From: Sphingomonas sp. AP4-R1
GTDB taxonomy: Bacteria > Pseudomonadota > Alphaproteobacteria > Sphingomonadales > Sphingomonadaceae
Reading direction: 5' to 3'
Assembly (NCBI RefSeq): GCF_013113735.1
Contig: NZ_CP053346.1
Span: forward strand, 1,874,001 to 1,938,000
DNA length: 64,000 nucleotides
Below the pieces are notes generated by a model. That model was not told the DNA's origin, ran no database searches, and was given only the letters and a program-made list of their open reading frames with translations. The translations under genes were made by a program, and so were the position numbers. Below, piece by piece: positions 1,672 through 58,672 of this stretch. Within the stretch, counting starts at the first letter, position 1. Each line of letters begins with the position of its first letter.

Positions 1672-2516
1672 GCGATGATCCTGTGAACCATGAAGCCGGC
1701 CGCAAGCCGCTGAAGCTCGTCATTTCCGATGTGGACGGCACGCTCGTCCGTTCCGACAAGACGCTCTCGCCCGCGACGATCGCGGCGGTGGGCCGTCTGG
1801 AGGCGGCGGGTCTGCCCTTCACCCTGATCAGCGCGCGGCCGCCGAGCGGGCTGCTGTGGATCGCGGAGGCGCTGAACCTCACGCATCCGATGGGAGCGTT
1901 CAATGGCGGCACGATCGTCAATCCGGACGGGACGGTGATCGCCGCCGAACGGATCGACACCGCCGCCGCCGAGACGGCGATCGCGATGCTGACCGAGGCG
2001 AAGGTCTCGATCTGGCTGTTCGCGGACGGCAAATGGTATGCGCAGGAAGGCGCGAACACGCATATGGAGTCCGAGCGCAACTCGGCCAATGCGGAGCCGG
2101 TGATGTTCGGGGATCCGGCCGAGGTGGAGGGGCCGTTCGACAAGATCGTCGGCGTGTCGGACGATTATCCCTATCTCGCCGCACTGGATGCCAAGGTGGC
2201 GGCGGCTTTGGGCGATGCGGCGACGGTGGGCCGCTCGCAGCTTTACTATCTCGACGTGACGGCGCCGCGCGCGAACAAGGGCGACGGCGTCGAGGCCTTG
2301 GCCGCGACGCACTGGCTGGGCCTCGACGAGGTGGCGGTGCTGGGCGACCAGCGCAACGATCTGCCGATGTTCGCGCGCGCGGGCTTTTCGGTCGCGATGG
2401 GGCAGGGGCCGGAGGAGGTGCGCGCGGCGGCCAGCTGCACCACGCTCTCCAATAACGAGGACGGCGTGGCCCACGCGATCGACACGATCCTGCTGCCGAT
2501 GGCGAAGGCCGAATGA
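1668..2516 (+). CDS. HAD superfamily hydrolase, Cof/IIB type
   Basis: About 282 residues. HAD motif I is ISDVDGTLVRSDKTLS near the N-terminus (nucleophile and acid/base Asp in DVDGT), and motif IV is GDQRNDLPMF near the C-terminus, the pattern of Cof-type sugar-phosphate phosphatases with a C2b cap between them. The GTG at 1668 overlaps the zwf stop in a GTGA junction; an in-frame GTG at 1683 is an alternative. The gene sits between zwf and rpe with coupled starts, so a phosphatase acting on a pentose-phosphate or related sugar phosphate is a reasonable inference, but the substrate cannot be read from sequence. Confidence 0.8.
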   Translation: MSDDPVNHEAGRKPLKLVISDVDGTLVRSDKTLSPATIAAVGRLEAAGLPFTLISARPPSGLLWIAEALNLTHPMGAFNGGTIVNPDGTVIAAERIDTAAAETAIAMLTEAKVSIWLFADGKWYAQEGANTHMESERNSANAEPVMFGDPAEVEGPFDKIVGVSDDYPYLAALDAKVAAALGDAATVGRSQLYYLDVTAPRANKGDGVEALAATHWLGLDEVAVLGDQRNDLPMFARAGFSVAMGQGPEEVRAAASCTTLSNNEDGVAHAIDTILLPMAKAE

Positions 2517-3199
2517 CCCGGCCTCTGCTGATCGCCCCGTCCGTCCTCGCGGCGGATTTCGGGCGGTTGGCGGAGGAGGTGGCGGCGGTGGACCGCGCGG
2601 GTGCGGACTGGATCCATGTCGACATCATGGACGGCCGCTTCGTGCCCGAAATCTCGTTCGGGCCGCCGGTGGTGCGCGCGATCCGCAAGGCGACGACGAA
2701 GCCGCTCAACGTGCATCTGATGGTGGTCGAGCCCGAACGGTCGCTGGCCGCCTATGCGGAGGCGGGGGCGGATCATCTGCTGGTGCAGGCCGAGCCCGGA
2801 TCGACCGTGCATCTCCACCGCGTGCTGAGCCAGGTGCGCGAGATGGAGAAGAAGGCCGGCGTCGTGATCGATCCGGCGACCCCGCTCGTCTGGATCGAGC
2901 ATGTGCTGCACCTGGCGGACATCATCCTCGTCATGACCGTCAATCCCGGTTTCGGCGGGCAGAAATTCCTGCCCGAGATGCTGCCCAAAATCGCGGCCTT
3001 GCGTGGGCTCTGCGCCGAACGCGGCCTCGCTCCGCACATCGAGGTGGATGGCGGGCAGGATGCGAGGACGGTGCGCAGCGTGGTGGAGGCGGGCGCGGAC
3101 GTGATCGTGGCCGGCACCGCCATCTTCGGTGCGGACGATCGCGCGGCCGCGATCGATCGGATCAGAACGTGCGGCGGTATGCCGGGAGGATGTGCATGA
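2513..3199 (+). CDS. rpe: Ribulose-phosphate 3-epimerase
   Basis: A 228-residue TIM-barrel enzyme that interconverts ribulose 5-phosphate and xylulose 5-phosphate. Visible signatures are the start LLIAPSVLAADF, the metal-binding IHVDIMDGRFVP segment near residues 34-45, NVHLMV, the phosphate-loop element VNPGFGGQKFLP, and a C-terminal VDGG. Its ATG overlaps the upstream HAD gene stop by four bases (ATGA), and its own stop overlaps the next ATG in the same way. Together with gnd and zwf it forms a pentose-phosphate operon. Confidence 0.95.
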   Translation: MTRPLLIAPSVLAADFGRLAEEVAAVDRAGADWIHVDIMDGRFVPEISFGPPVVRAIRKATTKPLNVHLMVVEPERSLAAYAEAGADHLLVQAEPGSTVHLHRVLSQVREMEKKAGVVIDPATPLVWIEHVLHLADIILVMTVNPGFGGQKFLPEMLPKIAALRGLCAERGLAPHIEVDGGQDARTVRSVVEAGADVIVAGTAIFGADDRAAAIDRIRTCGGMPGGCA

Positions 3200-3942
3200 A
3201 GACGATGATCGCGTTCGATCTGGATGGCACGCTCGCCGCCAGCAAGCAGCCCTTGCAGGACGATATGGCGGCGACCTTGAAGGCGCTGCTGGACGTGGCC
3301 TCGGTCGCGGTGATTTCAGGTGGCGATTGGCCGCAGTTCGACAAGCAGGTCGCCTCGCGCCTGCCGGAGGGCACGAAGCTGGAGCGGCTGTTCCTGATGC
3401 CGACGACGGGATCGAAGCTCTACCGCCATCGGGACGGCCAGTGGACGCGCATCTATGCCGAGGATTTCTCGCGCGACGAGCATGACCATATCCTGCAGGC
3501 GCTGCAGAAGGCCGTGAAGGCATGCGGCTACGATCAGGAGAAGACGTGGGGGCAGCAGATCGAGGATCGTGGCAGCCAGATCACCTTCTCCGCGCTCGGG
3601 CAGGAGGCGCCGCTGGATGCCAAGGAAAAGTGGGATCCCGATCAGAAGAAGCGCGGCGCGATGCAGGCGATCATCGAGAAGGAGCTGCCGGGCCTGTCGG
3701 TGAAGGTGGGCGGCTCCACCTCGATCGACATCACGCGCGAGGGCGTCGACAAGGCGTGGGCGATCGGAAAGCTGTGCGAGCATTCGGGAGTGGCGCGCGA
3801 CGAGATCCTGTTCATGGGCGACGCGATCTTCCCCGGCGGCAATGACGATCCGGTGCGGGCGGCGGGGATCGACAGCATCAAGGTGCGCGATCCGGCCGAG
3901 ACGATCACGGCGATCACGGCCGTGGTGGCCTGTCTGAAATAG
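3196..3942 (+). CDS. HAD-IIB phosphatase/phosphomannomutase-like protein
   Basis: About 248 residues. ATG 3196 is chosen because GGGAGG at 3184-3189 stands six bases upstream and the start overlaps the rpe stop (ATGA). Motif I is IAFDLDGTLAASK, and the C-terminal motif is FMGDAIFPGGNDDPV. The cap region carries IEDRGSQITFSALGQEAP, which resembles the cap of eukaryotic-type phosphomannomutases more than Cof phosphatases. It could act on a hexose phosphate or be a phosphomannomutase; the sequence does not decide. It is the last gene of the operon and is followed by a palindromic repeat and a strong terminator. Confidence 0.72.
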   Translation: MKTMIAFDLDGTLAASKQPLQDDMAATLKALLDVASVAVISGGDWPQFDKQVASRLPEGTKLERLFLMPTTGSKLYRHRDGQWTRIYAEDFSRDEHDHILQALQKAVKACGYDQEKTWGQQIEDRGSQITFSALGQEAPLDAKEKWDPDQKKRGAMQAIIEKELPGLSVKVGGSTSIDITREGVDKAWAIGKLCEHSGVARDEILFMGDAIFPGGNDDPVRAAGIDSIKVRDPAETITAITAVVACLK

Positions 3943-39886: not shown

Positions 39887-42319
39887 ATGAGGGCGTTTCG
39901 CAGCGGCATTCGGGGCTCGGCACTGGCATTGCTGGCGGCCGGACCGGCCTTTGCCGCGACCGTCACAGTGGATGCGACCGCCCCGTCGCCACAGCCACGC
40001 TCCGGCCATCTCATAATGGGCACAGGGGCAGGGCCGCATGGCACGCTCGGCGTCGACAGTCGGGAGCTGCTGCGCGACGGCAAGCCCTGGCTGCCGGTGA
40101 TGGGCGAGTTTCATTACACGCGCACGCCCGCCGCCGAATGGGATGCCGAGCTGGCGAAGATGAAAGCCTCGGGCGTCTCGATCGTCGCCACCTACATCAT
40201 CTGGAACCAGATCGAGCAGGAGCCGGGTCGTCTCGACTGGACCGGCGATCATGACCTCCGCCGTTTCGCACAACTCTGCGCCAAGCATGGCCTGATGCTG
40301 TTCGTGCGCCCCGGCCCGTGGGCGCATGCGGAGACGCGCTTCGGCGGCATTCCGGACTGGATCGTGGGTTCCACCCGCCCGCGCAGCAACGATCCCGCTT
40401 ATCTCGCGCAGGTCGAGCGCTTCTGGTCCGGCATAGGCGATCAATTGAAGGGCCAATTGTGGAAGGAAGGCGGGCCGGTCGTCGGTTTCCAGCTGGAGAA
40501 TGAATATAATACCGACGGCCCCGGTCAGGGGCGCGATCATATCCAGGCGCTGAAGGCGCTCGCGCTGAAGCTGGGCTTCGATGTCCCGCTCTATACGGTG
40601 ACGGGCTGGGACCACACCATCTATCCGCGTGGGCAGGTGCTGCCCGTCTTCGGCGGTTATCCGGACGAGCCCTGGTCGGCGAAGACGACGGCGCTGCCGC
40701 CCAAGGAGAATTATCTCTTCCGCTTCCACAGCCGGGTGAGCGGCGATCTGGGCGCGCAGACCAAATCGGCCAAGCGCGGTGACGCCGATGACGATATCGC
40801 GGACACGCCCTTCCTCGGCGCGGAATATGGCGGCGGCGTGCCCACCATGTATCGCCGCCGGCCGATCCTGCAGCCGGAGGATATCGCCGCCGCCGTCACG
40901 ACCCAGGTGGGCTCCGGCGTCAATCTGCTCGGCTATTACATGTTCCACGGCGGCGCGAACCCGCTCGCCCACGGGCGCACCCTGGAGGAGTCGAGCCGCT
41001 CGGGCGGCTATAATGACGTGCCGGCGATCGGGTACGACTTTCAGGCGCCGATCGGCCAATATGGCGAGATCAATCCGGTCAACGGCGCGCTCCGGCCGCT
41101 CCACGCCTTTCTGGAGGCCTATGGCGACCGGCTCGCGCCGATGGTGCCGCACGAGCCCGCCGTCGTGCCGAGCGGGCCGGGGGATCGCGCGTCGCTGCGT
41201 TGGTCGCTCCGAAGTGCTGGCGACAGCGGCTTCCTGTTCGTGAACAATCACATCCGCCAATACCCGATGGCGAAGCAGAGCGCGGTGCGCTTCACGCTGA
41301 AATTGCCGGGCCGGACGGTGACGATGCCGTCGCGGCCGATCGACATCGCTTCGGGCGCGAGCTTCTTCTGGCCGATCGATCTGGATCTCGATGGCGTCCG
41401 GCTGGCCTGGGCGACGGCGCAGCCGATGACGCGGCTGGAGGATCGCGATGGGCCGATCCATGTGCTGGCCGCAACGCAGCCGGGGCCGGTGGAGCTGGCG
41501 TTCGATGCGGGCGTGCGCGCCGTCTCCGTGCCGACGCGTGCGGAGGACGGCGGCAGGCTGATCGCGCAGGTGATCCCCGCGCCGAACCGGATCGTGACCG
41601 TCACCAAGGCGGATGGTGGGCGCGTGCGCCTGCTGGTGCTGGACCCGGCCTCGGCGAAGCAGGCGTGGGTCGGCGAGGTCGGCGGCCAGCGCCGGCTGGT
41701 GCTGACCCCGGCCGATCTCACCTTCGACGGCGATCAGATCACGCTGCGGAAGCGGGGTGGCGGGGATGTGCCGCTCGCCGTCTGGCCGGCCGTGCCGTCA
41801 CTGGCGAAGCAGCCGGGCGTGCGGAGCGGGGCGAACGGGGCGATGATCGCGCGGCTCCCGGCGGCAGCGACGCAGACGCTCACGCCGCAGCAGTCGCGCG
41901 CGGCGGGCGAGGCGCCGCCGGTGGAGATTGGCGGTCCGGCCAAGGCCGCGATGCAGCCGCTGGACGAAGCGCATCGCGTGGACGCGGCGTGGACGTTCAG
42001 CGTGACGACGGACGCGCTGCCCAAGGGCGGCGATGCCTTCCTCGAGATCGATTATCGCGGCGATATCGGCCGTCTGTTCGACGGCACCACGATGATCGAC
42101 GATGCCTTCTGGGACGGGCGCGTGTGGCGCATCGGCCTGCGTCGCTTCGCCGCCCGCCTCGGCCATCCGTGGACGCTCACGGTGATGCCGCTCCGCGCCG
42201 ACGCGCCCATCTATCTGGACGAGAAGACGAGGGCGCTCGTGCCCGCCAAGGAGCAGGTGGCGGACCTGCTCTCGGTGCGCCTGATCCCGGAAAGCGAGCT
42301 GACGATCAGGCTGCGCTAG
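39887..42319 (+). CDS. Glycoside hydrolase family 35 beta-galactosidase, exported
   Basis: An 810-residue protein with signal peptide (FRSGIRGSALALLAAGPAFA). ATG 39887 is preferred over 39884 because GGAGG is then six bases away. The GH35 catalytic signature GGPVVGFQLENEYNTDG places the predicted acid/base at E206; the predicted nucleophile is E313 in FLGAEYGGG. Downstream are beta-sandwich domains of the family, with GDIGRLFDGTTMIDDAFWDG in the last. It should remove terminal beta-galactose from oligosaccharides or galactan in the periplasm. It stands alone, with no sugar transporter beside it; the 237-bp gap upstream has AT-rich sequence near 39807-39830 suitable for a promoter. Confidence 0.9.
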   Translation: MRAFRSGIRGSALALLAAGPAFAATVTVDATAPSPQPRSGHLIMGTGAGPHGTLGVDSRELLRDGKPWLPVMGEFHYTRTPAAEWDAELAKMKASGVSIVATYIIWNQIEQEPGRLDWTGDHDLRRFAQLCAKHGLMLFVRPGPWAHAETRFGGIPDWIVGSTRPRSNDPAYLAQVERFWSGIGDQLKGQLWKEGGPVVGFQLENEYNTDGPGQGRDHIQALKALALKLGFDVPLYTVTGWDHTIYPRGQVLPVFGGYPDEPWSAKTTALPPKENYLFRFHSRVSGDLGAQTKSAKRGDADDDIADTPFLGAEYGGGVPTMYRRRPILQPEDIAAAVTTQVGSGVNLLGYYMFHGGANPLAHGRTLEESSRSGGYNDVPAIGYDFQAPIGQYGEINPVNGALRPLHAFLEAYGDRLAPMVPHEPAVVPSGPGDRASLRWSLRSAGDSGFLFVNNHIRQYPMAKQSAVRFTLKLPGRTVTMPSRPIDIASGASFFWPIDLDLDGVRLAWATAQPMTRLEDRDGPIHVLAATQPGPVELAFDAGVRAVSVPTRAEDGGRLIAQVIPAPNRIVTVTKADGGRVRLLVLDPASAKQAWVGEVGGQRRLVLTPADLTFDGDQITLRKRGGGDVPLAVWPAVPSLAKQPGVRSGANGAMIARLPAAATQTLTPQQSRAAGEAPPVEIGGPAKAAMQPLDEAHRVDAAWTFSVTTDALPKGGDAFLEIDYRGDIGRLFDGTTMIDDAFWDGRVWRIGLRRFAARLGHPWTLTVMPLRADAPIYLDEKTRALVPAKEQVADLLSVRLIPESELTIRLR

Positions 42320-42352
42320 GGCGGCGTTCGATCACTCTGCCGATCATTCTGC

Positions 42353-42432
42353 CGTGCTCCTGCGAAAGCAGGAGCCCAGAGCTTCGGGCGCATCCGCCTG
42401 CAACCCTGGGCTCCTGCGTCCGCAGGAGTACG
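42353..42432. repeat. 80-bp double-hairpin intergenic repeat, family A, copy 2
   Basis: Hairpins gctcctgc-gaaa-gcaggagc (42356-42375) and ctcctgcg-tc-cgcaggag (42411-42428) flank the core cccagagcttcgggcg. Same length and outer ends as the copy at 3953-4032. It lies just after the beta-galactosidase stop. Confidence 0.87.
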
Positions 42433-42461
42433 GATGGCCTGAAGATGTGCGGCAATCTGTT

Positions 42462-42536
42462 CGTCATTGCGAGCGCAGCGAAACAATCCAGACCCGCACG
42501 GGAGGACTGGATTGCTTCGCTGCGCTCGCAATGACG
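42462..42536. repeat. Long inverted repeat element (family E)
   Basis: Arms cgtcattgcgagcgcagcga... at 42462-42491 and its near-exact reverse complement ...ctgcgctcgcaatgacg at 42507-42536 form a stem of about 30 bp around a 15-base loop. Only one copy is visible here, but the form is that of a dispersed palindromic element. It follows the family A repeat directly. Confidence 0.8.
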
Positions 42537-42571
42537 ATCGTGGGAGGGAGGCGTCGATCGCCCCCGGAGCG

Positions 42572-42754
42572 TCAGTCCTTGGCCTGGCTCTTCTTCTTCC
42601 GGTAGCGCGTCGCGTAGAGCAGGGCCGCCGCCAGCGCGGCCGATCCGATCCCCGCGCCCACGCCCGCGCCGATCCACATGCCCATGTTGGGATTCGCCTT
42701 CGCCTTCTCGGCGTCGGTCTTGGTTTCGGGCGTCTTGTTGGCGTCGTCGGCCAT
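42572..42754 (-). CDS. Small single-pass membrane protein
   Basis: A 60-residue protein. ATG 42754 has GGGAG eight bases upstream; a GTG at 42763 leaves no room for it. The N-terminus is charged and hydrophilic (MADDANKTPETKTDAEKAKA), followed by one glycine/alanine-rich transmembrane helix (MGMWIGAGVGAGIGSAALAA) and a basic tail (YRKKKSQAKD) that should stay in the cytoplasm. No family recognised. Confidence 0.72.
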   Translation of the reverse strand: MADDANKTPETKTDAEKAKANPNMGMWIGAGVGAGIGSAALAAALLYATRYRKKKSQAKD

Positions 42755-42906: not shown

Positions 42907-44385
42907 TCAGTGCGCCAGCGCCTTCACGATCTCCTCCACCATCTTCTTGGCGTCGGCGAGGAGCATCATCGTATTGTCCTGGTAGAACACGTCATTGTCG
43001 ACGCCCGCATAGCCCACGCCGCCCATCGATCGCTTGATGAACAGCACGGTCTTGGCCTTGTTCACGTCGAACACGGGCATGCCGTAGATGGGCGAGCTTT
43101 TGTCGGTCTTGGCGGCGGGGTTCACCACGTCGTTCGCGCCGATGATGAAGGCCACGTCGGTCTGGGCGAACTCGCTGTTGATGTCCTCCAGCTCGAACAC
43201 CTCGTCATAAGGCACGTTCGCCTCGGCCAGCAGCACGTTCATATGGCCGGGCATGCGGCCCGCGACCGGATGGATCGCATATTTCACGGTGACGCCCTCG
43301 GCCTTCAGCACGTCGGCCATCTCGCGCAGCGCATGCTGGGCCTGTGCCACCGCCATGCCGTAACCGGGCACGATGATGACCTGCTCGGCCTGGCTCATCA
43401 GGAACGCCGCATCCTCGGCCGAGCCGCGCTTCCATGGCCGCTGCTCCTTCGCTTCGCCGCCACCTGCGCCACCCGCATCGCCGCCGAAGCCGCCCGCGAT
43501 CACGCTGATGAAGCTGCGGTTCATCGCCGCGCACATGATGTAGCTGAGGATCGCGCCCGACGAGCCGACCAGCGCGCCGGTGATGATCATCGCGGTGTTG
43601 TGGAGCGTGAAGCCCATCGCGGCGGCCGCCCAGCCCGAATAGCTGTTCAGCATCGAGACGACGACGGGCATGTCCGCGCCGCCGATCGGGATGATCAGCA
43701 GGAAGCCGATCGCGAAGGACAGGAGCGCGATCGCCCAGAACAGGATCGGTGTGTTCAGGTGGAACAGGCCGACCAGCACGAGGATCGCGACGAGCGTACC
43801 GAGGTTGATGATGTGGCGGCCGGGCAGCATGATCGGCTTGCCGCCCATATTGCCGTTGAGCTTCAGGAAGGCGATCACGGAGCCGGAGAAGGTGATCGCG
43901 CCGATCGCGATGCCGAGGCCCATCTCGATCCGGCTGTTGAGGAAGATGTCGGCGCCGCTCTCGTCGAGGATGCCGAACGCGGCGGGGTTCAGGAACGCGG
44001 CGATCGCCACCAGCACGGCGGCGAGGCCGACGAGGCTGTGGAAGGCCGCGACGAGCTGCGGCATCGCCGTCATCTGGATGCGCTTGGCGGTGGTGAGGCC
44101 GATCACGGCGCCGATCAGGATCGCGCCGGCGATTTCAGCGGCGGTGATCCAGTCGATCGTCCACGTCGTCCAGCAATCGGCGGCGATCGGGCAGACCCTG
44201 GTGCCCACGGCGGGGGCGTGGGTGATGAGCGTGGTCGCCACGGCGATGGCCATGCCGGCCATGCCGAAGCGGTTGCCGCGCTGGCTGCTCGACGGGCTGG
44301 AAAGCCCGCGCAGCGCCATGATGAAGCAGACGCCCGCGACCAGATAGGCCAGCATCGCCCACGGATTGACGGCTACATGCTCCAT
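42907..44385 (-). CDS. pntB: NAD(P) transhydrogenase subunit beta
   Basis: A 492-residue inner-membrane subunit that binds NADP(H) and with PntA couples hydride transfer between NADH and NADP+ to proton entry. About eight transmembrane helices are visible in the first 300 residues (LVAVFHSLVGLAAVLVAIA-like region, ALLSFAIGFLLIIPIGGADM), then a soluble domain with IIVPGYGMAVAQAQHALREM, HPVAGRMPGHMNVLLAEANV and FIKRSMGGVGYAGVDN, all strongly conserved. It is the last gene of the pnt operon, separated from pntA2 by a palindromic repeat. Confidence 0.95.
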   Translation of the reverse strand: MEHVAVNPWAMLAYLVAGVCFIMALRGLSSPSSSQRGNRFGMAGMAIAVATTLITHAPAVGTRVCPIAADCWTTWTIDWITAAEIAGAILIGAVIGLTTAKRIQMTAMPQLVAAFHSLVGLAAVLVAIAAFLNPAAFGILDESGADIFLNSRIEMGLGIAIGAITFSGSVIAFLKLNGNMGGKPIMLPGRHIINLGTLVAILVLVGLFHLNTPILFWAIALLSFAIGFLLIIPIGGADMPVVVSMLNSYSGWAAAAMGFTLHNTAMIITGALVGSSGAILSYIMCAAMNRSFISVIAGGFGGDAGGAGGGEAKEQRPWKRGSAEDAAFLMSQAEQVIIVPGYGMAVAQAQHALREMADVLKAEGVTVKYAIHPVAGRMPGHMNVLLAEANVPYDEVFELEDINSEFAQTDVAFIIGANDVVNPAAKTDKSSPIYGMPVFDVNKAKTVLFIKRSMGGVGYAGVDNDVFYQDNTMMLLADAKKMVEEIVKALAH

Positions 44386-44410
44386 TAAAACCCCCTCGAA
44401 CCTTTTATCG

Positions 44411-44493
44411 CGTCATGCCAGCGAAGGCTGGCATCTCCGGGCTATCAGGCGCTCGCCCGGCCACACGAGATCCCGGCCTGCGCCGGGATGACG
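44411..44493. repeat. Palindromic repeat element in the pntA2-pntB gap (family F)
   Basis: Two hairpins, atgccagc-gaag-gctggcat (44415-44434) and atcccggc-ctgc-gccgggat (44470-44489), are enclosed by inverted ends cgtcat/atgacg. It fills almost the whole 109-bp gap between pntA2 and pntB. It resembles dispersed REP-type elements. Confidence 0.78.
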
Positions 44494-44494
44494 A

Positions 44495-44809
44495 TCAATG
44501 CTTGGGACCGGCGCCGGCCGGCTTGTCCTTCTTCTTGTACATGGCGAGCATCCGCTCGGTGACCGCGAAGCCGCCGAAGATGTTCACGCTGGCCAGCACC
44601 ACCGCCGCCAGGCCGAGCCATTTCGACGCGGCGGATCCGCCCAGCACGCCGGCCGCACTCGCCACCAGCGCGCCGACGATGATCACGGACGAGATCGCGT
44701 TGGTCACCGCCATCAGCGGCGTGTGCAAGGCGGGCGTGACCGACCAGACGACATAATAGCCGACGAAACAGGCCATCACGAAAATCGACAGGATCGAGAT
44801 GAAGTCCAT
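44495..44809 (-). CDS. pntAB: NAD(P) transhydrogenase subunit alpha, part 2 (membrane part)
   Basis: A 104-residue protein with three to four transmembrane helices (ISILSIFVMACFVGYYVVW, MAVTNAISSVIIVGALVA, LGLAAVVLASVNIFGGFAV) corresponding to the C-terminal membrane part of E. coli PntA; the split into two polypeptides is normal in alphaproteobacteria. ATG 44809 has GGAG about seven bases upstream and shares its A with the stop of the DUF559 ORF (TGATG). It should assemble with PntA1 and PntB. Confidence 0.93.
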   Translation of the reverse strand: MDFISILSIFVMACFVGYYVVWSVTPALHTPLMAVTNAISSVIIVGALVASAAGVLGGSAASKWLGLAAVVLASVNIFGGFAVTERMLAMYKKKDKPAGAGPKH

Positions 44810-45279
44810 CAGCAGGCTCCGCTAAATTCCTCCCCATGCAAAGCATGGGGAGGGGGACCGACCGCAGGGCGGTGGAGGGGTAAGGCGGCGCGCGCAAGCA
44901 TATCGGCTGCGGCATCCGGATCGTTCAAAACCTTGCGCGCTTCGAGCCGGACAATTTTGAGCCCGCGCGCGATCAGAAAAGCATCGCGAATTTCGTCACG
45001 GTGCGGTCGATTTCCGTGTGCGTGGCTGGCGCCGTCGATCTCGGTGGCGAGCTTGGCCGACGCGCAATAGAAGTCGAGAATATAAGGGCCGATCGGATGC
45101 TGGCGACGAAACTTCGCGCCGCCGGCCTTGCGCCGCAGACGCTGCCACAACAGACCTTCCGGCAGGCTCATGTCGCGGCGGAGGGCGCGAGCCTTGCGGA
45201 CGGGATCTGCCCCTCCACCAGCCTTCGGCTGGTCCCCCTCCCCATGCGGGGCATGGGGAGGAACTAGGTGGGCGATCAT
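44809..45279 (-). CDS. DUF559 (Vsr-like) endonuclease inserted in the pnt operon
   Basis: A 156-codon ORF. The DUF559 domain spans residues about 28-131: RKARALRRDMSLPEGLLWQR, KFRRQHPIGPYILDFYCASA and ATEIDGASHAHG. The D in LDFYC and the ExD-like EID give the PD-(D/E)XK pattern of very-short-patch-repair-like endonucleases. Residues about 6-24 and 134-151 are translated from two flanking 54-bp inverted repeats, so both ends are encoded by repeat DNA. The first ATG (45279) overlaps the pntA1 stop, and the TGA shares its A with the pntA2 start. Met37 is the only other obvious start. It has no role in transhydrogenation; it looks like a mobile-element gene. Confidence 0.85.
   Translation of the reverse strand: MIAHLVPPHAPHGEGDQPKAGGGADPVRKARALRRDMSLPEGLLWQRLRRKAGGAKFRRQHPIGPYILDFYCASAKLATEIDGASHAHGNRPHRDEIRDAFLIARGLKIVRLEARKVLNDPDAAADMLARAALPLHRPAVGPPPHALHGEEFSGAC
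44827..44880. mobile_element. Left inverted repeat of the DUF559 cassette
   Basis: A 54-base arm with hairpin cctccccatgc-aaa-gcatggggagg and a second hairpin accgc-agg-gcggt. It is the inverted counterpart of 45210-45263. Loop 1 differs (aaa versus ccc), and the second stem differs with both strands changed together, indicating that the fold is maintained. Confidence 0.85.
45210..45263. mobile_element. Right inverted repeat of the DUF559 cassette
   Basis: A 54-base arm, in reverse orientation to the left arm: hairpin cctccccatgc-ccc-gcatggggagg and second hairpin accagcc-gaa-ggctggt when read on the minus strand. It starts 12 bases inside the pntA1/pntA2 interval. Outside the arms both sides show cta (ctaaa left, ctagg right), too short to prove a target duplication. 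Confidence 0.85.
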
Positions 45280-46403
45280 CCGAGCAGCCTCGGGTTCACG
45301 ACCTTGCCGCCCTGCGTCAGGCGGATGGCGTCGCCGATTTCGGCGTCCAGCACGGGTTTGCCCGCTTCCTTGTCCCAGAAGGCCGAGAGGAAGTTGAAGA
45401 GGTTGCGCGCGAATAGGGCCGAGGAATCGGCGGCCATCGTCGCCGCGATATTCTTCGCGCCGATGATCTTCACGCCGTGCTTCACGATCGTCTCGCCCGC
45501 GACGACACCCTCGACATTGCCGCCGCTTTCGGCCGCCAGATCGACGATCACGCTGCCCGCGCGCATCGTCGCGATCTGCGCGTCGGAGATCAGGCGCGGG
45601 GCGGGGCGGCCGGGGATCAGGGCCGTGGTGATGACGATGTCCTGCTTGGCGATATGCGCGGAAACCAGTTCGGCCTGTGCCTTCTGATACTCGTCGCTCA
45701 TCTCGGTCGCGTAGCCGCCGGAGCCTTCGCCCTCGATGCCCTTCACGCTTTCCACGAAGATCGGCTTGGCGCCGAGCGACTGGATCTGCTCCTTCGTGGC
45801 GGAGCGCACGTCGGTGGCCGACACCTGCGCGCCGAGGCGCCGCGCGGTGGCGATCGCCTGCAGGCCGGCCACGCCCACGCCCATCACGAACGCCTTGGCG
45901 GCCGAGACGGTGCCTGCGGCCGTCATCATCATCGGGAAGGCGCGGCCATATTCGGCCGCCGCCAGCAGCACCGCCTTGTAGCCGGCGAGGTTCGACTGCG
46001 AGGAGAGGATGTCCATCGATTGCGCGCGCGTGATGCGCGGCATGAATTCCATCGCCAGCGCCTCATAGCCCGCCGCCGCATAGGCATCGACGCGCGCGCG
46101 CTCCGCGAACGGCGCGAGGCCCGCGACGATCCACGCGCCGGGGTTCGCGCCCGCAAGGCCCGTCGGATCGGCCCCCTGTATGCCGAGGATGATGTCCGCG
46201 CCCGCCAGCGTCGCCGCGCGATCGCCGATGGCGGCGCCGGCCGCCGCATAATCGGCATCGGAGATCGAGGCGGTGAGGCCGGCTCCGCTCTCCACCGCGA
46301 CGGTGGCGCCGAGGGCCGCAAACTTCTTCACGGTCTCGGGCGTCGCCGAAACCCGCGTCTCGCCGGGCGCCGTCTCCTTCAGGACGGCGATCTTGAGTGC
46401 CAT
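45276..46403 (-). CDS. pntAA: NAD(P) transhydrogenase subunit alpha, part 1 (NAD-binding)
   Basis: A 375-residue soluble protein related to alanine dehydrogenase: start MALKIAVLKETAPGETRVSA, MEFMPRITRAQSMDILSSQ, NAD-binding VMGVGVAGLQAIATARRLGA, and GSVIVDLAAESGGNVEG. It binds NAD(H) on the cytoplasmic side of the proton-translocating transhydrogenase. Its TGA overlaps the start of the DUF559 ORF. It begins eight bases after the oxidase subunit IV gene stop, so that small gene probably leads the operon. Confidence 0.95.
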   Translation of the reverse strand: MALKIAVLKETAPGETRVSATPETVKKFAALGATVAVESGAGLTASISDADYAAAGAAIGDRAATLAGADIILGIQGADPTGLAGANPGAWIVAGLAPFAERARVDAYAAAGYEALAMEFMPRITRAQSMDILSSQSNLAGYKAVLLAAAEYGRAFPMMMTAAGTVSAAKAFVMGVGVAGLQAIATARRLGAQVSATDVRSATKEQIQSLGAKPIFVESVKGIEGEGSGGYATEMSDEYQKAQAELVSAHIAKQDIVITTALIPGRPAPRLISDAQIATMRAGSVIVDLAAESGGNVEGVVAGETIVKHGVKIIGAKNIAATMAADSSALFARNLFNFLSAFWDKEAGKPVLDAEIGDAIRLTQGGKVVNPRLLG

Positions 46404-49400: not shown

Positions 49401-49410
49401 CCCTTCTCTT

Positions 49411-49558
49411 CTCCCCTCCCTGGAAGGGAGGGGCCGGGGGTGGGTGGAAGCTTGCGAGCCGCTCGCTGGACAATGGCAGGTCGGTCGGGCTCGCTGCCGG
49501 AGCCGATCGCCCCGCCTTCCTCAACCCACCCCCAACCCCTCCCTTTCAGGGAGGGGAG
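49411..49558. repeat. Composite palindromic repeat, family C, copy 1
   Basis: Hairpin cccctccct-gga-agggagggg (49413-49433), then gggggtgggt, a 75-base spacer, its complement acccaccccc, and a closing hairpin cccctccct-ttc-agggagggg (49536-49556). The two halves are mirror images around the spacer. It fills the gap between the convergent folP and rnhB genes. Confidence 0.82.
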
Positions 49559-49582
49559 TTTGGTGGGGGAGCGCAGAGGGGT

Positions 49583-53583: not shown

Positions 53584-53667
53584 GCCCGCAAGCGGGAGGC
53601 AGAGGAGGAGCGCAAGGCTCGCTTCGCTCGCGCCCACCCCCGGCCCCTCCAGCAGGCGGGAGGGGAG
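53584..53667. repeat. Composite palindromic repeat, family C, copy 2 (degenerate)
   Basis: Left arm cccgc-aa-gcggg, a middle with gcttcgctcgcgcccacccc shared with the copy at 58575, and right arm cccctcc-agcagg-c-ggagggg (53644-53665). It lies between the PilZ and lipoprotein genes. Confidence 0.65.
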
Positions 53668-58574: not shown

Positions 58575-58672
58575 CTCCCCTCCCGCATGCGGGAGGGGTT
58601 GGGGGTGGGCAGGCGCCGGAGCTCGCTCCGTTCGCGCCCACCCCTCGATCCCCTCCCGCAGGCGGGAGGGGA
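58575..58672. repeat. Composite palindromic repeat, family C, copy 3, in the rpoB-rpoC gap
   Basis: A perfect 22-base palindrome at 58577-58598 (cccctcccgca/tgcgggagggg), then ggggtgggc, a small ggagc-tc-gctcc hairpin, complement gcccacccc, and a closing hairpin at 58650-58671. Nearly the whole gap between the two essential genes is this element. Confidence 0.85.

Follow-up and report, generated by a model that had tools for sequence, protein, structure and literature searches.

The stretch of DNA analysed here (64,000 nt, in the following the window) raises the question why a gene for a DUF559 endonuclease lies between two inverted repeats and between the genes pntA1 and pntA2 (names taken over from a preliminary description of the locus), and what the repeats and the nuclease have to do with each other. 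The preliminary description had claimed two 54-bp inverted repeats around the gene, paired base changes in their second stem, and a reading frame that runs through both repeats and overlaps both neighbours. The bases agree with it in all these points. The repeats, in the following called arms, are found at the same coordinates (Table 1), are 85% complementary and have 329 nt between them; the flank-to-flank inverted alignment score of the locus (L007) is 68. The DUF559 ORF, with its terminal codons, runs through both arms and shares bases with both neighbours: the ATG with the stop codon of pntA1 (ATGA), the TGA with the ATG of pntA2 (TGATG). The left arm consists, in this order, of an outer hairpin (CCTCCCC-ATGC..GCAT-GGGGAGG), an inner hairpin (ACCGC/GCGGT) and a GGAGGGG strand on the gene side. 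The inner stem (stem 2) covaries, the right arm having ACCAGCC/GGCTGGT at this place, and in single-stranded DNA folding each arm is predicted to form two hairpins, with free energies of -18.9 and -20.3 kcal/mol and z values of -5.0 and -4.2. Palindromic-looking repeats of another type occur at 44405-44495 and 42306-42605, where they flank the downstream gene 42907-44385; one of them is of the GTCATGCCAGCGAAGGCTGGCAT type and others are stretches translating as HCERSEAIQ..GLDCFAALAMT.

Table 1. Coordinates of the DUF559 locus, of the gene-less arm copies in the window and of a repeat pair at E. coli ycjD
Feature	Position	Strand	Basis or sequence
DUF559 (PF04480) endonuclease ORF, 156 aa	44809..45279	-	ORF list, Pfam scan
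DUF559 domain match, residues 28-128	44896..45198	-	Pfam scan
Left arm, 54 nt	44827..44880	+	inverted-repeat search, folding
Right arm, left-arm unit inverted, 54 nt	45210..45263	-	inverted-repeat search, folding
pntA1, same operon, upstream of the DUF559 gene	45276..46403	-	
pntA2, downstream of the DUF559 gene, start overlapping the DUF559 stop	44495..44809	-	
Gene-less inverted doublet, REPIN-like, L002/L003/L004 arm type (L311)	49410..49560	.	window
Gene-less inverted doublet, hairpins like the L001 arm type	58577..58668	.	window
Single imperfect arm, T1 type	53634..53665	-	window
ycjD 3'-region 39-bp partial copy pair (E. coli K-12)	2321-2359 and 2427-2465		L062

By its sequence, the window protein is a DUF559/YcjD-like PD-(D/E)XK nuclease: PF04480 is matched far above the cut-off (E 9.4e-26, 90.3 bits vs 20.6), next to weaker matches to MTES_1575 and DUF2726, and the E, D, E, D columns are invariant. 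An alignment of 18 sequences (A4) has E40, D68, E79, D81, H85, D94, R97 and R110 (window numbering) without exception. The Pfam scan of the window protein returned neither a Vsr match nor Y1_Tnp, the HUH Y1 transposase domain. By profile and by fold, the nearest solved relative is 3hrl (an endonuclease-like protein from Neisseria gonorrhoeae), followed by the homing endonuclease I-Bth0305I (3r3p; fold E 5e-4, profile E 2e-5). The Vsr structure 1vsr is a weak fold match (E 0.8), and the Vsr model TIGR00632 was matched below threshold by L003 only (E 0.0016). The nuclease is under purifying selection, with dN/dS values of 0.06-0.22 in twenty close pairs, several of them with saturated dS, and of 0.06 in the arm-less pair L141/L142. 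A role as defence gene was considered and rejected, the PADLOC matches being weak and partial (DpdF, PDC-S37, mREase_II; three of four proteins).

The arms are no peculiarity of the pnt operon. All eight DUF559 matches in the 5.27-Mb genome of the window (G000) are enclosed by inverted palindromic arms, which come in several types; those of L006 pair in pieces only. Our larger set of 115 loci comprises 30 loci from the seven genus genomes G000-G006 (8 from G000) and 85 phylum loci with at least 41 bits from an even draw of 160 phylum genomes, 51 of which hold a DUF559 match at E ≤ 0.001; gene fragments (e.g. L020, L029) are counted, a neighbouring second copy (G057:C10:5527) is left out, and the domain position of L092-L147 is taken as about 3001-3315 of the fetched stretch. 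When the upstream flank was aligned to the reverse complement of the downstream flank, 67 of the 115 loci reached the threshold score of 40. The rate was 0.1% for 1431 control positions inside these loci and 4.1% for 1954 mismatched pairs of flanks taken from different genomes. We also searched for a motif made up of a pyrimidine-rich stem, the complementary stem strand and then a G-rich strand. Within 350 nt of the gene it had a match at 106 of the 115 loci (30/30 genus, 76/85 phylum), on both sides in 73. Its density was 3.37 per kb in the vicinity of the gene, compared to 0.15 in the remaining parts of the loci and 0.019 in Markov shuffles. The nine loci without the motif within this distance (L129, L134, L138, L140, L141, L142, L144, L145 and L147) mostly have divergent or truncated domains. 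Six of them (L129, L140, L144, L145, L141, L142) have open frames of some 200-400 aa whose DUF559-like products show a change in one conserved acidic residue; these arm-less proteins are possibly domesticated.

A named set, the best 80 of at least 585 confirmed candidates, gave a similar picture; among its members are alpha-, beta- and gammaproteobacteria as well as some metagenome-assembled genomes that carry labels of other phyla, and it is skewed to relatives of the query (Comamonadaceae), since the best-scoring 80 were chosen. The motif was detected at 74 of the 80 loci, on both sides in 49, and was lacking in six, with 3.2 motifs per kb near the gene vs 0.16 elsewhere in the loci. A score of at least 40 was reached by 39 of 79 loci vs 3 of 1210 control positions (0.25%), and by 17 of 78 if the flanks are taken strictly outside the match. 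Canonical Vsr genes from the phylum draw, represented by 30 loci out of 44 listed Vsr matches, yielded 0/30 on the inverted-repeat score and 0/30 on the motif. The association of arms and DUF559 genes is general and goes beyond chance; 8/8, 106/115 and 74/80 loci answer the question, raised in the preliminary description, whether DUF559 genes are repeatedly flanked by arms.

Our comparison of the arms in the 115-locus set revealed a common layout, with the hairpin on the outer side and the G-rich strand toward the gene. At loci with only one strand matched, the left arm was + in 55 and - in 2 cases, the right arm - in 53 and + in 3, and many DUF559 ORFs enter the right arm with their C-termini. 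The arm of L003 reads CCCCTCCC-loop-GGGAGGGG-TT-GGGGGTGGG, a second form CCCTCTCCC..GGGAGAGGG..GGGTGAGGG and the form of the Comamonadaceae CCTTCCCCC..GGGGGAAGG..GGGATGGGG, while in the window-type arm an extra hairpin separates the purine stem from the last G-rich strand. Similarity is 0.86 between both arms of an element (66 loci); between arms of different elements it is 0.72 within the same genome (48 pairs) and 0.64 across genomes (4242 pairs). The G-rich strand occurs specifically on the inner side of the hairpin (44.6% of 336 hairpins vs 0.9% on the outer side). It is possible that the arm folds as an intrastrand triplex; triplex formation is a proposal, since a third strand in mirror order (44.6% of the 336 hairpins) is barely more frequent than one in direct order (38.1%), the value for the shuffled segment being 25%. 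The idea that the arms are a known structured RNA was dropped, as no Rfam family reached the gathering score in nine loci.

Repeats of this kind have been described before as box C or intrastrand-triplex (PIT/TMECO) repeats for E. coli and over 260 genomes, and the available part of this description reports no associated mobility gene and lists 23 TMECO copies for E. coli K-12 (Holder et al. 2015, PMC4666352). Judging from sequence and predicted folding, the DUF559 arms share the architecture of this class, namely a hairpin, 2-3 nt and a G-rich strand, arranged in inverted pairs and present in many genomes. The published consensus of these three parts is matched by the arms of many DUF559 loci, and the exact TMECO consensus occurs on both DUF559 flanks in G069:C1 and G165:C19. 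There are also differences: DUF559 is a consistent partner here, whereas the available text of PMC4666352 names no mobility gene, and the window-type arm adds an inner hairpin in the connecting loop and thereby departs from the TMECO consensus, its last G-rich strand coming after the inner hairpin.

E. coli itself provides a further case. The gene ycjD of strain MG1655 (1351407-1351760) is a DUF559 gene; TMECO no. 9 is located 167 bp past its stop, a second triplex-motif arm overlaps its 3' end, and between these two arms a stretch of 39 bp repeats part of the 3' region of ycjD (90%; Table 1). The 5' side of ycjD has no such arm in MG1655. We found no clean empty site for ycjD, with 3362 of 5426 genomes holding at least 80% of the region; in two E. 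coli strains lacking ycjD, a regulator and an efflux gene adjoin fabI, the place for which the accessible part of PMC12817139 reports eefRABCD. The E. coli genome among our 14 control genomes had no PF04480 match, though one Vsr match, and strain variation of ycjD may explain this. The mean number of repeats at other places, determined for 59 of 60 listed E. coli records, was 3.3 in the 37 records with ycjD and 1.6 in the 22 without it, a difference to which we give no weight, since it is a coarse proxy confounded by lineage.

Arms also occur without a gene. Both the window type and the L003 type are scattered across the genus genomes, as seen in searches with 40 scored candidates per genome. 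A sample of 800 kb, taken evenly from G000 and holding none of its eight DUF559 genes, has 15 strict motifs compared to 0 in the shuffle, and all six motif pairs with a distance below 150 bp are +/- and span 106-156 bp; the position of 6 of the 15 motifs inside a crude long-ORF mask is uninformative, the mask covering 58% of the sample. Two hairpins are present in 17 of 20 fetched places, which were mostly picked as doublets. The gene-less doublets have the arm in common with the gene-bearing elements, some of them also a few inner bases, and the centres differ. The question whether arms are dispersed, raised in the preliminary description for solo arms, is answered by scattered gene-less arms, many of which form inverted doublets, and the window itself has examples (Table 1). 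Three genus genomes also have, in many places, another dispersed repeat roughly 90 bp long (L002 2513-2607).

At this point, a trivial explanation has to be considered. The arms might have come to surround DUF559 by chance, being ordinary terminators, hairpins that stabilise mRNA or palindromes prone to recombination, which would agree with the stability of the hairpins and with the strain differences at box C loci mentioned in the accessible part of PMC4666352. However, neither the control positions nor the Vsr genes have arms, the orientation of the arms is nearly uniform, many DUF559 C-termini enter the right arm, and the same arms are dispersed as +/- doublets. We rejected this reading because of the control positions and the Vsr control, and its probability appears very slight.

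Orthologous sites differ in their occupation. The pntA1-pntA2 junction contains a gene-bearing element in G000 and G005, a doublet followed by a DUF559 gene in G004 and G006, and nothing but a short spacer in G001. G002 has two pntA1-pntA2 copies (G002:C7:395702 and G002:C1:170809) with different element remnants at the junction, a solo hairpin in one copy and one full plus one degraded arm in the other. The empty junction in related strains that the preliminary description had asked for therefore exists in G001, next to the gene-less remnants of G002. PntA1 is 82-88% identical to that of the window in G001, G002, G005 and G006 (in G004 there are two pieces with 68 and 86%), whereas the DUF559 proteins at the junction are only 50-57% identical, and both fast divergence and repeated insertion into the same site fit these values. 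G002 lacks the element of L002: 121 nt, not 677, separate the flanking matches there. Unoccupied sites hence exist in relatives, both at the pnt junction (G001) and at the L002 site (G002), in agreement with gain or loss alike. E. coli BH100 has a solo hairpin at the site of a K-12 doublet, a footprint like that in G002; a deletion between short repeats of the two arms would yield such a solo hairpin with or without a nuclease.

The type of arm follows the phylogeny of the nuclease. A tree was built from 184 domains, after 11 of 195 loci had been omitted for domains below 85 aa. On it, the arm class changes 48 times, compared to 107.7 times after shuffling and with 0/200 shuffles as low; given the physical linkage of arm and gene, shared descent would be enough to produce this agreement. 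In this count, 47 of the 184 loci were without arm class and treated as their own fifth class, and 26 changes remain without them; since the class patterns are rough, some labels are doubtful (e.g. L005, L023 and L169 as B). A clade of 20 rows (SH-aLRT 95) has the window-type arm in 19. A correlation between protein and flank similarity was set aside, the flanks including coding parts. DUF559 forms several subfamilies, each with its own arms, and reaches up to 10 matches per genome.

Of the 160 genomes, 36 have a stand-alone DUF559 (a match of at least 40 bits, our own cut). The TMECO consensus was detected in 18 of these and in 9 of the other 124 (odds ratio 12.8, p 5e-8, with kinship between genomes ignored), and the reversed control pattern gave one match. 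The consensus describes a single arm class, and therefore the other 18 of the 36 DUF559 genomes, including G000 with 0 exact matches, are without it. Four genomes (G146, G060, G055 and G038) contain 8-121 TMECO-type motifs and no DUF559 match, with 121 copies in G146 and 36 in G060; such genomes may have lost the nuclease or may use another enzyme. Among the L003-type query matches listed, G006 has 73 and lacks this nuclease type, G003 has only 5 and two such nucleases, G000 (77) and G002 (107) have both nuclease and matches, and G001 (0), G004 (7) and G005 (4) have neither or almost neither of the two. A strict coupling of nuclease and dispersed repeats does not exist.

In our opinion, the best reading of the locus is that DUF559 probably serves as partner nuclease in a REPIN-like system, which resembles RAYT/REP but employs a PD-(D/E)XK enzyme. 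The DUF559 gene and its two inverted arms would be the gene-bearing copy of a REPIN-like element. The stand-alone nuclease would recognise the arm, i.e. a C-rich/G-rich hairpin with a G-rich inner strand and possibly an intrastrand triplex, and would nick or cut it when it is extruded or single-stranded, for instance at a replication fork. Host repair of the cut would then move or copy the unit bounded by the outer hairpins, which could be the whole nuclease element or, in trans, a short gene-less doublet, and losses of the element would leave a solo hairpin. Every nuclease subfamily might act on its own arm subfamily. We regard it as likely that a structure-specific nuclease cutting at the arm drives copying and loss of the unit through host repair; binding, cleavage, mobilisation and action in trans are what we infer for this enzyme. 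PD-(D/E)XK enzymes hydrolyse DNA and are not known to form a covalent link of the kind used by HUH transposases. Strand transfer in the style of RAYT cannot be assumed for such an enzyme.

RAYT genes are flanked by REP palindromes, and REPINs are dispersed, gene-less inverted doublets of these. The likeness to TnpA-REP systems concerns the single partner gene between inverted palindromic repeats, the dispersed short doublets without a gene, and the occurrence of several gene/repeat subfamilies within one genome. In contrast, RAYT is a Y1 HUH transposase and DUF559 a PD-(D/E)XK hydrolase, and the arms differ from REPs as C-rich/G-rich hairpins with a G-rich inner strand. MITEs are short gene-less copies that have only their ends in common with the gene-bearing copy, just as gene-less doublets and the DUF559 element are alike at the ends only, but the DUF559 element has no DD[E/D] or HUH transposase. 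The preliminary reading as a mobile element analogous to RAYT/REP is supported insofar as the arms are general, gene-less doublets are dispersed and sites vary; it has to be modified in that the arms are of a class already described.

The main rival of the partner-nuclease reading, although rather unlikely, is homing into existing repeats. Here, the repeats came first and spread by other means, and DUF559 is a selfish gene similar to a homing endonuclease that invades doublets by cutting gene-less elements. I-Bth0305I as second-best solved relative by profile and fold is in line with homing, as are the ends common to doublets and gene-bearing elements and the repeats in genomes without a matching DUF559. 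Both I-Bth0305I and DUF559 are nucleases of a mobile gene under this assumption, but the former is listed as a mobile intron protein, whereas the DUF559 gene is bounded by dispersed palindromic repeats. Moreover, whole elements occur at sites that are unoccupied in relatives, the arm differences are systematic by nuclease clade, and DUF559 is the sole gene between the arms in the own-genome elements inspected, all of which argues against homing.

DUF559 could also be a host repair nuclease for Vsr-like mismatch or hairpin processing, the arms being a regulatory or structural feature of the locus and not the boundary of an element. The nuclease folds are related, with the weak TIGR00632 match, and purifying selection would suit such a role. 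According to the accessible part of PMC12907096, the Caulobacter DUF559 protein VsrA is needed for the SOS response when the solitary cytosine methyltransferase is absent. Yet the Vsr genes differ from DUF559 genes in being arm-less (0/30) and the 1vsr fold match is weak; several subfamilies with up to 10 matches per genome and arms of their own, as well as the dispersal of gene-less arm copies, speak against a repair enzyme, and we consider this explanation improbable.

Returning to the partner-nuclease reading, a wider version of it seems about evenly balanced between right and wrong. It states that DUF559 proteins are the mobilising enzymes of the whole box C/intrastrand-triplex class in Pseudomonadota and perhaps beyond, forming a second, independent REPIN system that is based on metal-dependent PD-(D/E)XK enzymes, works without a HUH transposase and recognises a hairpin or triplex structure. 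In the literature covered, with subscription papers and preprints largely outside and texts accessible in part, we found no paper tying DUF559, YcjD or PF04480 to REP or triplex repeats. The accessible parts of PMC12907096, PMC1189080, PMC6712171 and PMC12817139, which name DUF559, YcjD or PF04480, make no such link, and those of PMC12306157 and PMC3733652 do not mention DUF proteins.

Our results suggest that DUF559 is a candidate for the missing enzyme of a common and unexplained family of bacterial repeats. As far as the accessible part of PMC4666352 goes, box C/triplex repeats had no enzyme to explain their spread. The DUF559 nucleases, for their part, have no agreed role. The link between the two makes both questions testable in E. 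coli K-12, which has ycjD and the TMECO copies. If it is true, REPIN-type systems would have arisen with two unrelated nuclease chemistries, and the strain-to-strain instability of the hairpin loci would gain a candidate cause.
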